A stretch of DNA of 38,934 nt from Cytophagales bacterium (lineage in GTDB: Bacteria > Bacteroidota > Bacteroidia > Cytophagales > Thermoflexibacteraceae): NCBI GenBank assembly GCA_947457925.1, contig CANGYA010000014.1, forward strand, positions 1-38,934, given 5' to 3'. Every line of letters begins with the position of its first letter. Within the stretch, counting starts at the first letter, position 1. This document shows, piece by piece, positions 1-37,448 of the stretch. The notes beneath the pieces were generated by a model that saw only the letters and a program-made list of their open reading frames with translations, was not told the origin of the DNA and ran no database searches. The position numbers were made by a program, and so were the translations under genes.

Positions 1-143
1 AATTGTTATACGTAGTCTTCAAGAAGCTCTATAAAGATGACATCTTTCTAAAAGATGTCATCTTTATAGAGCTTCTTGAAGACAATCAAACTTATTTCTT
101 TGAAAAAAATTAGTTTCACTATAAGTTTTTAAAGCACGACCCT
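1..143. repeat. Palindrome-bearing repeat element, copy A (reverse orientation, cut by window edge)
   Basis: Positions 15-47 and 51-83 are perfect 33-base reverse complements around a 3-nt loop (CTA). The right part (84-143) carries a stretch that recurs at 17180 and 34228, ending in AAAGCACGACCCTA, which reads as TAGGGTCGTGCTTT on the other strand and matches the ends of those copies. The left end continues beyond the window. No coding content is seen. Confidence 0.8.
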
Positions 144-1998: not shown

Positions 1999-2006
1999 GA
2001 TAATAG

Positions 2007-2077
2007 AGTTTATGAATACTTGCCGAAAGATGTAATCTTTTTGAAAGATTACATCTTTCGGCAAGTATTCATAAACT
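2007..2077. repeat. Perfect 34-bp palindrome D with shared core
   Basis: Arms 2007-2040 and 2044-2077 are exact reverse complements around a TTG loop. The inner part (AAAGATGTAATCTTT) is shared with the palindromes at 15-83, 17242-17320, 34103-34157 and 34325-34393. The outer part (AGTTTATGAATA) is instead shared with the terminal repeats of the elements at 13715 and 37364. Confidence 0.85.
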
Positions 2078-2085
2078 TTAATAGG

Positions 2086-8796: not shown

Positions 8797-10305
8797 CTAC
8801 ATTTCAGGATTCCAAGCCTCCTCCCACTTCATACTCCGTTTAATGGCTTCTTGCCAACCTTTATACAGCTTTTTACGTTTCTCTTCGGGCATATTCGGCG
8901 TAAAAGTTTTGTCCAAAGCCCATAACTTGGTAACGTCTTCTTTTTTCCACAAACCAATGCCAATACCTGCCAAAAATGCTGCTCCTCTGGCGGTGCTTTC
9001 TATCACTTCGGGGCGTTGCACCTCTACACCCAAAATATCTGCCTGAAACTGCATCAACAAATTATTGGCGGTAGCTCCCCCATCTACCCGCAAACTCTTA
9101 ATGGCAATGCCTGTTTCTTGCTGCATTGCCTCCAAAACGTCTTTGGTTTGGTAGGCTAAGGCATCTAAGGTAGCTCGTATGAAATGGTTGTGTGTAGTGC
9201 CTCTGGTCAAACCAAAAACAGCCCCACGTGCATACATATCCCAGTACGGCGCACCCAAGCCACTAAACGCAGGGACAATATACACGCCTCCCGAATCTGC
9301 CACTTTGCTCGCAAAATATTCAGAATCTTTGGCTTCGTCTATCATTTTCAAGCCGTCCCGTAACCACTGAATAGCTGCCCCTGCTATAAACACACTGCCC
9401 TCCATAGCATATTCTATTTTGTCGTCAACACCCCACGCAATAGAACTTACCATGCCTTTTTGCGACTGTACCAACTGCGAACCTGTGTTTTTGAGCATAA
9501 AACAGCCTGTTCCGTAGGTATTTTTGACCATACCAGCCTGCAAACACGCCTGCCCAAACAAGGCTGCTTGTTGGTCGCCTGCTACGCCTGTAATCGGAAT
9601 TTCTACACCATCAAAAAGTTTTCTGTCTGTTTTTTCATAAAAGCCACTTGAATTGCGGACTTCGGGCAACATATTTCTTGGAATGTCCAAGGTATCTAAA
9701 ATGGTATTGTCCCAATCTAACTTTGTGATATTGTATAACAAAGTACGTGAGGCATTGGAGTAGTCTGTGGCGTGTAGCCAACCACCTGTCAATTTCCAAA
9801 TCAACCAACTGTCTATCGTACCAAACAGTAAATTGCCTGCTTCGGCTTGTTTGCGTGCATTGGGTATCGTGTCCAAAATCCATTTGAGTTTTGTCCCCGA
9901 AAAGTAGGCATCTATGACCAAGCCTGTAGTTTTGCGGATATGCTGCTCAAAATTGGGCTGAAAACGCAGTTTATCGCAAATAGCTGCGGTTCTGCGGTCT
10001 TGCCAAACTATGGCTTTGCAGACAGGCTCACCCGTATTTCTATCCCAAACTACTGTCGTTTCTCGTTGGTTCGTAATGCCTATGGCTGCAATGTCTGTAA
10101 ATTTGAGTTGGGCTTTTTGCACAGCTTGGCGAATCATGTCATACTGTATATTCCAGATTTCATTGGCATCATGCTCTACCCAGCCTAATTGTGGATAATA
10201 TTGTGTAAATTCTTTTTGGGCAATGCTTTTGATAAAGCCGTTTTCATCAAAAATAACAGCCCGACAACTCGTTGTGCCTTGGTCTATGGTGAGAATATAT
10301 TTCAT
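8797..10305 (-). CDS. glpK: Glycerol kinase
   Basis: Phosphorylates glycerol to sn-glycerol 3-phosphate with ATP, feeding lipid synthesis and glycolysis; cytoplasmic FGGY-family kinase. The 502-residue protein starts with the ATPase phosphate-1 motif [13 protein letters not shown], contains [13 protein letters not shown] and the glycerol-site block WQDRRT, the FGGY signature region [28 protein letters not shown], and the adenosine-binding [19 protein letters not shown]. The length is standard and the start unambiguous. No glpF, glpD or glp regulator lies nearby, so the gene is probably transcribed alone. Confidence 0.97.
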
Positions 10306-13714: not shown

Positions 13715-13801
13715 TAGAGTTTATGAATAATTCTTTAAAACCCTCCCCAGCAGGGGAGGGAAGGGTGGGGCTATAGCAAAAAAAATTATTCATAAACTCT
13801 A
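13715..13801. repeat. Short element with GAGTTTATGAATAATT inverted ends and GC-rich centre
   Basis: TAGAGTTTATGAATAATT (13715-13732) and its exact complement (13784-13801) flank a centre with the palindrome CCCTCCCCAGCAGGGGAGGG, then AAGGGTGGGGCTATAGC. A second copy, with the centre in reverse orientation, is at 37364-37448. It lies in the 246-nt gap between the phosphatase and barrel genes; nothing else is seen there. Confidence 0.8.
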
Positions 13802-17077: not shown

Positions 17078-17179
17078 CTTATTAAGTTTTTAATGCGTAT
17101 ATTATAAATAATAATCAAACCTTATAGAGTGATAAGATGAATTGTTAGGCTAAAAATTCTTAGAACTAACAATTCTTAT

Positions 17180-17351
17180 AGTGTTGTGCTTTAAAAACTT
17201 ATAGCAAAACTAATTTTTTTCAAAGAAATAAGTTGATTGTATTCAAGAAGTTCTATAAAGATGTAATCTTTTGAAGGGTGCGACCTCTCGCAAGATTACA
17301 TCTTTATAGAACTTCTTGAACACTAAGTATAACAATTTATAGCACGACACT
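17180..17351. repeat. Palindrome-bearing repeat element, copy B (complete)
   Basis: A 172-bp element between AGTGTTGTGCTTTAAAAACT and its inverted partner ending ATAGCACGACACT. Inside, arms 17242-17270 and 17292-17320 are exact 29-base complements; the 21-nt loop is longer and more GC-rich than in the other copies. It lies in the spacer between the divergent pgeF and yihY-type genes; nothing else is evident in that 379-nt gap. Confidence 0.85.
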
Positions 17352-17456
17352 AAAAGAGATATTAGTTCTTTTGTATTCTTTAAGGTACAACTCTGTAAGG
17401 TCTAAATTATCAAAATTAGCAAAGTTTTACTATTTTTCGCCTTCAAATTTGTTTTT

Positions 17457-25459: not shown

Positions 25460-26072
25460 AGTGCCGTAGGCACGAAATAGTTATAGAAATGAACTGATAA
25501 TTTGTATTAAAGTTCCGTAGGAACGAAATAATTACACTATGGCAAATACGTTTTCACAAATTTATATACAACTTGTTTTTGCTGTCAAAGGCAGAGAAAG
25601 CCTAATCAGCAAATCTTGGAAAGATGAGCTTTACAAATATATTACAGGGATTTGTACGAATAATAATCAAAAGTTAATAGCTATAAATGGCGTTGCAGAC
25701 CACATTCATATTTTAATTGGTTTGAAACCTTCTATGGCTTTGTCTGAATTAGTAAAAGATATAAAATCAAATTCGAGTAGATTTATAAACGAAAAGAAGT
25801 TTGTAAAAGGTAAGTTTAGTTGGCAAGAAGGATACGGTGCTTTTTCTTGCTCACATTCGCAACTTGACGCAGTGGTAAAATACATTGATAACCAAGAAAA
25901 TCATCATGCTACTAAGTCATTTAAAGAAGAATACCTGATATTTTTAAAGAATTTTCAGATTGAATATGATGAAAAATATTTATTTGAATGGATTGAATAA
26001 AGGTTTCGTTCCTACGGAACTTTGGTATTGTGTGGGTTAGTTTTCTATAAATATTTCGTGCCTAACGGCACT
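25460..26072. mobile_element. REP-associated transposase unit (gene plus flanking REP hairpins)
   Basis: The transposase gene is enclosed by two nested pairs of REP units in inverted orientation. The outer pair is 25460-25479 (AGTGCCGTAGGCACGAAATA) and 26052-26072 (TATTTCGTGCCTAACGGCAC, then T). The inner pair is 25509-25530 (AAAGTTCCGTAGGAACGAAA, then TA) and 26004-26023 (TTTCGTTCCTACGGAACTTT). This is the usual layout of a REPtron. No target duplication is evident, as expected for HUH enzymes. Confidence 0.85.
25539..26000 (+). CDS. IS200/IS605-like Y1 transposase, REP-associated (RAYT)
   Basis: Single-strand DNA transposase of the HUH (Y1) type, 153 residues. The family core is visible: start FSQIYIQLVFAVKGRE, the metal-binding HUH motif in ADHIHILIG (about residue 67), SELVKDIKSNSSRFIN, WQEGYGAFSCSHSQ, and the nucleophile tyrosine in VVKYIDNQENHH (about residue 122). 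Its length and flanking REP hairpins point to a REP-associated domesticated-type transposase rather than a full insertion sequence; no TnpB gene is present. It may have spread the related hairpin at 10448-10495. Confidence 0.92.
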   Translation: MANTFSQIYIQLVFAVKGRESLISKSWKDELYKYITGICTNNNQKLIAINGVADHIHILIGLKPSMALSELVKDIKSNSSRFINEKKFVKGKFSWQEGYGAFSCSHSQLDAVVKYIDNQENHHATKSFKEEYLIFLKNFQIEYDEKYLFEWIE

Positions 26073-26317
26073 AAAAAATTATATGCAAAGTTTATGAATG
26101 GTTGAAAAATTATTTATATATTGTTGATTATCAATAACATATGTTTATCAAAGTGGTTCATTGATGAACTATATTAACAATGTTATGCTTACTGTGAAAA
26201 TAGTTTTATAGGAATGAAAGACTTAAGTAGTAAGCACAAGTTAGCTTAGATTATTTTGAGTTCAAAATATAGTTTAACTATTTGATTTTAAGATTATATG
26301 ACTGTTGACAATAGTCA

Positions 26318-34102: not shown

Positions 34103-34157
34103 AATGTAATGCAAACGGTGTAATCTTTTGAAAAGATTACACCGTTTGCATTACATT
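34103..34157. repeat. Near-perfect 55-nt palindrome E with shared core
   Basis: Arms 34103-34129 and 34131-34157 are exact 27-base complements around a single G. The inner GTAATCTTTTG matches the core of the other palindromes, while the outer arm (AATGTAATGCAAACG) is found nowhere else in the window. Confidence 0.85.
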
Positions 34158-34227
34158 TTAACACTACCAATAACAGACAAAAGCATATCATTGAATAGTA
34201 AAAAGTAGTAATTTTCTTGCTTGTTAT

Positions 34228-34421
34228 TGTCGTGCTTTAAAAAGTTATAGTAAAACGGTAGTACCACACAAGTAATGCTGGGACTACATTAAAACTAACT
34301 TTTTTCAACGAAATAAGTTTGATTGTGTTCAGCTATCCCTATAAAGATGTAATCTTTTAGAAAGATTACATCTTTATAGGGATAGCTGAACACTACGCAT
34401 AACAATTCATAGCACGACACT
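34228..34421. repeat. Palindrome-bearing repeat element, copy C (with inserted segment)
   Basis: A 194-bp element between TGTCGTGCTTTAAAAAGTTA and ATAGCACGACACT. Arms 34325-34357 and 34361-34393 are exact 33-base complements around TAG. About 36 extra bases (34258-34293, GTAGTACCACACAAGTAATG and onward), absent from copies A and B, resemble 7702-7744 in reverse. The element and palindrome E together fill most of the 492-nt gap upstream of the large sensor gene. Confidence 0.85.
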
Positions 34422-34427
34422 ATAAAG

Positions 34428-37363: not shown

Positions 37364-37448
37364 TAGAGTTTATGAATAATTTTTTGCTATAGCCCCACCC
37401 AAACCCTCCCCACAGGGAGGGCTAAAAAGGAATTATTCATAAACTCTA
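37364..37448. repeat. Second GAGTTTATGAATAATT-ended element (centre reversed)
   Basis: TAGAGTTTATGAATAATT and its complement (37431-37448) flank GCTATAGCCCCACCC, then a CCCTCC / GGAGGG palindrome. This is the reverse complement of the centre at 13715-13801. It is located between the divergent recA and M15 peptidase genes. Confidence 0.8.

Follow-up and report, generated by a model that had tools for sequence, protein, structure and literature searches.

Palindrome D, located at 2007-2077 of the 38,934-nucleotide stretch of DNA analysed here (the window), is probably a 75-bp IS5-family MITE from a sub-lineage that carries a GATGTMATC core, in which the short arm has been copied, inverted, over the long one. 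The original prediction described D as the ends of one repeat family combined with the core of another, and the matches to both parts in the window bear this out. Comparison with related genomes makes it most likely that D belongs to an existing lineage uniting these terminal inverted repeats (TIRs) with the core, and is not a one-off fusion.

The perfect palindrome comprises 71 bases, with two perfectly complementary arms of 34 bp (2007-2040 and 2044-2077) and a 3-nt TTG loop. Including its full ends, the element spans 2005-2079 (75 bp) and is flanked by AAT at 2002-2004 and 2080-2082, the 3-bp target duplication being the rule in this family. The left TIR AGAGTTTATGAATA (2005-2018, forward strand) equals the end of the IS5-family element L278 except for one base and is followed by the 7-nt linker CTTGCCG (2019-2025, forward strand), which has the place and length of ATTACCC or ATTTTCG in the MITE of a sister species. 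The core hairpin AAAGATGTAATCTTT-TTG-AAAGATTACATCTTT occupies 2026-2058. On the other arm the perfectly complementary linker CGGCAAG (2059-2065, reverse strand) leads to the right TIR (2066-2079, reverse strand), the outer end of which has one base changed (AAACTTT in place of AAACTCT). RNA folding of 2001-2090 gave -54 kcal/mol, with a z-score of -17 against 200 shuffles. D is intergenic and flanked by two convergent genes; the space between them (1858-2270) consists nearly entirely of four consecutive palindromes (1872-1939, 1942-1998, D and 2110-2220), the last of which contains another hairpin inside.

D shares its outer 12 bases with the elements at 13715-13801 and 37364-37448; in the middle it has the GTAATCTTT core, which is present in other hairpins of the window. 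Both sequences are much more frequent than expected by chance, in the window as well as genome-wide. Exact matches to AGTTTATGAATA lie at 2007, 2066, 13718, 13787, 37367 and 37434; at one mismatch there are 8 matches in the window versus 0.65 expected, a number reached in 0/100 shuffles, confirming that the sharing of the 12-bp ends goes beyond chance. For GTAATCTTT, 9 matches were found in the window (0.87 expected). In the whole genome (4.86 Mb), GAGTTTATGAATA has 171 exact matches versus 0 for the reversed control, and core sites with up to 3 mismatches number 223 per strand versus 1 for the control.

Tabulating inverted GAGTTTATGAATA pairs, a check proposed with the original prediction, revealed a MITE family. 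The TIR of the frame is AGAGTTTATGAATAA with a 3-bp AAT duplication, and these are IS5-family MITE ends. At least 109 paired copies were found across three genomes; the 59 from D's own genome come from stretches round those of the 171 exact TIR places that were among the matches listed. Among these 109, a 3-bp duplication is present in 88 copies (AAT/ATT in 84 of those) and a 4-bp duplication in 0; in the sister species, 33/33 paired copies have the 3-bp duplication. Both companions of D in the window have GC-rich centres, with an AAT duplication at 13716-13800 and an ATT duplication at 37365-37447. A scan with PF01609 yielded 12 loci, one of which (L163) pointed to the parent insertion sequence, L278, a 997-bp element of the sister species whose ends are the MITE TIR with one mismatch each. 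Its transposase is of the IS5 type (DDE_Tnp_4, 3.6e-15) and apparently split across two frames; there is also a truncated second copy, sharing 454 identical bp. D's own genome (assembly in 329 contigs) gave no match to this transposase at E<=1e-5. A subterminal TTTTTTGTTA is common to L278 and the other MITE copies, while D has the TIR only. Since the TIR, the 3-bp duplication, the ends of L278 and the TTTTTTGTTA shared by MITEs and L278 all agree, the assignment of D's frame to the IS5-family MITEs is well supported; D itself shares its ends with L278 and has the short duplication of fixed length, AAT, on either side.

The centres of this frame differ between genomes. Among the matches listed for D's own genome, the centre is GC-rich in 52 of the 59 paired copies (11 of these 52 with an extra TGCGA..TCGCA micro-hairpin by classifier call), CAGACTTTAGTCTG in 5 and of another kind in 1; D alone has the core. 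In the sister species a core variant forms the centre of 32/33 paired copies. The remaining MITE (L230, 6771-6949) has, in place of its core tip, a palindrome of about 110 nt with AGGCTGTCCGAAAAGGC ends and no duplication, which resembles an inverted-repeat replacement. In the third genome, 16/17 paired copies contain two CCCTTTAGGG-like blocks. A whole-genome pattern of TIR and core within 30 bases matched only D in its own genome (one element, both strands); the same pattern gave no match in the sister species, where the core variant reads ATTTTT and escapes it. Thus, as a comparison, it is real that one TIR frame carries different palindromic centres by genome, which would amount to centre exchange. 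The proposal that nested palindromes swap their centres agrees with this and with the presence of one core in several frames; it does not hold for D as a swap in its own genome, given the 32 sister copies with TIR and core. The tabulation revealed no hybrid besides D in its own genome, and the idea that such a swap had happened nowhere else in nature was dropped in view of the sister lineage. Exchange of centres would be possible if the transposase needs the ends only, and also because at least one core-carrying MITE (frame A) targets hairpin tips. D itself may have been moved by a transposase acting in trans on its ends.

We consider it most likely that D is a member of the sister lineage because of these 32 copies and because its arm is laid out like their short arm. 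In the sister species the short arm consists of AGAGTTTATGAATA, then ATTACCC or ATTTTCG, then AAAGATG, and on the long arm a stretch derived from the IS, TTTTTTGTTA, stands between TIR and core; each arm of D reads AGAGTTTATGAATA, CTTGCCG, AAAGATG. Since both arms of D have the short-arm form, the long arm was likely overwritten, and since the long arm in the sister species contains the IS-derived stretch, unequal arms seem to be the earlier state and D a symmetrised derivative. The linker of D matches the sister short linkers at 4/7 positions (ATTACCC) or fewer. In the sister species, L123/L138 has TTTTGTGAATA, CTTACCG and AAAGATG on either arm, and in D's own genome contig C200 ends with a matching right half with ACTACCG; the chain through L123 and C200 is short, and L123 has other genes as neighbours than D and thus does not lie at the D site. 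An orthologue of the D site (an empty site) was not found in the sister species, where the gene has other sequence behind it, and among the copies compared none was caught with partly equalised arms. In D's own genome the sub-lineage, common in the sister species, would be reduced to D and one broken relative, as far as searched. The overwriting could have occurred when a replicating strand folded back on its own hairpin and copied it (template switching), and the same fold-back copying may keep drifting core hairpins perfect.

The core is present in several unrelated MITE frames, and some core hairpins have unique arms. Frame A, with TAGTGTCGTGC ends, is found in the window at 17179-17352, with GGTGCGACCTCTCGCA in the core tip and palindromic flanks (score 7.5), and at 34225-34422, with arms changed in step relative to other copies. 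At 1-239, as judged by eye, two frame A MITEs are nested: the first, which reaches to 144 and is truncated by the start of the contig, occupies the core tip of the second (145-239). Frame 3 has GGTAGTG ends and duplications that by eye seem to be 8 bp long (ACAATGTT, GAAAATTT, TAATTTTA, AATTATTC); in both species it also occurs with a very different centre, AACTAACATTTCT. Its copy with core at 34103-34168 has lost one end and is a second symmetrised case, both arms corresponding to the right arm of the frame. The tip variant GGTGCGACCTCTCGCA is found in the core of both frame A and frame 3, and the sister species has a version of it in cores with several different arms. Another core-carrying frame, in genome G002, has TTATACTTTAAACC ends.

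Several further arrangements were seen. A frame with AATACCAATTATA ends has two core halves about 50 bases apart (L043 3007, L055 4942 and 15332, L060 13048, L068 1482, L073 11811). On contig C200 (L143 1-222), a D-like half hairpin immediately follows the end of a frame A element, as though this element lay in its centre, the other half being past the contig end. A conserved hairpin beginning with TACGTTGGCAATGGTC has arms that vary by place (L143 188-222, L073 near 8900-9050, L044 18265-18396) and once forms the centre of frame A. The search pattern for an apex family, GGCAATGGTC with arms that vary, was matched by a single hairpin. The core as the end of an insertion sequence was rejected, as the sequences examined held no transposase-bearing partner. 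At window 1-83 and in C25, C56, C61, C64, C77, C171, C172 and C176, a core hairpin lies no more than about 100 bases from the contig end; because many contigs break off near such hairpins, copy numbers are probably too low.

Insertion at hairpin tips is well supported for frame A only. Its flanks are mutually palindromic, with a mean score of 6.98 versus 2.47 after re-pairing (0/200 permutations), and 11 of the 20 flank pairs, which include one second pairing of the same copy, score at least 7 (5.1% expected). Three copies (L094, L101, L112) lie in the tip of a core hairpin. The base on either side of TAGT..ACTA is identical in 16/20 distinct copies, collapsed by hand from 37 rows in which most copies appear on both strands, and no 2- or 3-bp repeat flanks this motif, which hints at a possible duplication of a single base at the tip. 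For the IS5 MITEs the flanks score 1.81 on average versus 1.72 after re-pairing (39/200 permutations), and 2/108 score at least 7. Loop-specific insertion for all families was therefore rejected: the IS5 MITE flanks are not palindromic, and a 93-bp MITE has its micro-hairpin on one arm and not at the tip, so that not all insertions are central. The earlier suggestion that the core inserts into the middle of palindromes thus applies to frame A as one core-carrying MITE; insertion of the bare core into D finds no support. How the core entered the IS5 frame may be explained by tip insertion with loss of the middle layer, by inverted-repeat replacement as in IS1272 or by independent capture, and each of these would serve.

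The two arms of frame A hairpins change in step. In 15 hairpins picked for distinct sequence and a length of 69 nt (longer or repeated ones such as L066 and L111 were left out), 495/495 cells are paired. Both sides have changed in 14/33 pairs, giving 43 cells of double change, a single cell is changed on one side only, and one cell is G-U (1/495). This pairing was reached in 0/500 shuffles and slid controls were likewise far lower; the core part was ascertained via the search pattern, and the outer 20 pairs are free of that. Arms differ between copies at a mean of 4.5/33 positions, within copies at 0 in 14 hairpins and at 1 in one. Such changes are consistent with hairpin-templated copying, which would explain the symmetry of D.

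Selection on an RNA hairpin, a terminator or structured RNA, might also hold the arms matched. Those core hairpins whose arms are unique tend to lie at gene ends: with a plain ORF finder, 11 lie between convergent and 2 between divergent genes of 33 (5 overlap an ORF), and another count gave 11 versus 4 of 31, so that a terminator role is possible for these hairpins. Five gene ends compared across species have unrelated sequence or other hairpins in the other species, as this explanation would allow, and at none of them was a hairpin with one arm alone found. However, selection on RNA would tolerate many G-U states and leave them behind, whereas none are expected where one arm is copied from its partner, and the near absence of such states in frame A favours copying at the DNA level. 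Furthermore, the IS5 MITEs show no lean to convergent gene ends (11 convergent versus 16 in one count, 3 versus 8 in the other). A terminator scan of 1700-2500 called two sites, neither of which is D; the stem of D is followed by TTTAATAG, and by the T-run test it is not an intrinsic terminator. We therefore consider RNA selection rather unlikely as the cause of the matched arms. The Rfam search of the window returned tRNA only.

It might further be argued that D is a fresh hybrid formed in its own genome, a local MITE having had its GC-rich centre exchanged for a core hairpin through recombination or tip insertion. The prevalence of GC-rich centres there, D being the sole copy with TIR and core, would agree with this, as would the centre replacement seen at L230. 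But both arms of D lack the subterminal TTTTTTGTTA of the local MITEs, and its linker has the length and place of the sister lineage, which makes an origin by local fusion improbable. That D resembles the MITE ends by chance is the least credible explanation: the shared sequence is short (14 bp), but it is present on both arms, at the ends and with the AAT duplication where it should be, and an entire lineage in the sister species is built alike. Together with the counts in window and genome, this led us to reject coincidence. Our preferred reading remains a symmetrised member of the core-carrying IS5 sub-lineage.

D is one of a larger group of palindromes that occur nested in these bacteria, of which one kind tends to insert at the tips of existing hairpins. 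We tentatively consider a self-nesting system, though we regard it as more doubtful than not: frame A, targeting tips and carrying a central hairpin, would create a new tip with each insertion, fold-back copying would rewrite arms and strip middle layers, and a few centres would thereby spread to unrelated palindromes, gene ends and transposons, D being one product. Long perfect palindromes are usually considered unstable; here hundreds of them persist, with arms that co-change and centres common to unrelated mobile elements. Copies of a single hairpin in which 14 pairs have changed on both sides, with G-U states nearly absent, are natural material for the question of selection versus DNA copying, and the tip-inserting MITE offers a concrete, testable target rule.

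REP and REPIN elements are mobilised by RAYTs and consist of a hairpin beside a conserved GTAG-type tetranucleotide, with a linked Y1 transposase. In the window, the region 25460-26075 contains a Y1_Tnp gene (at 25539; PF01797, 1.9e-30) that is preceded by the hairpins GTGCCGTAGGCAC and GTTCCGTAGGAAC, which are other than the core, and followed by inverted copies of them; this looks like a RAYT with REP-like repeats. In the open PMC texts, the only ones searched, we found no literature on the element of D. It resembles bacterial IS5-family MITEs in being short and non-coding, with IS5-type TIRs, a fixed 3-bp duplication and many intergenic copies; it differs from them in that the centre itself is palindromic and varies by genome, and in that D is symmetrical nearly to its ends.

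In Volvox organelle DNA, short palindromic repeats have inserted into other palindromes, generating larger compound repeats (PMC2670323). This insertion of palindrome within palindrome is similar to our observations; the portion of that report available to us concerns organelle DNA and gives no TIR or duplication, whereas the frames here have transposon ends. IS1272, according to the part of its description available, targets stem-loops by inverted-repeat-replacing transposition (PMC5678879). L230 fits this mode, its hairpin tip being replaced by another palindrome without duplication, whereas frame A keeps the arms of its target in place. D itself was not made in this way, since it has a 3-bp duplication. 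Template switching makes and maintains hairpins; the accessible part of the source argues this for RNA stems and terms the process thoroughly studied in microbes (PMC8794818). The likeness lies in perfect stems and paired changes that arise when one arm copies the other. There, as far as that part goes, the case was inferred for RNA genes, whereas here it would concern mobile DNA palindromes.
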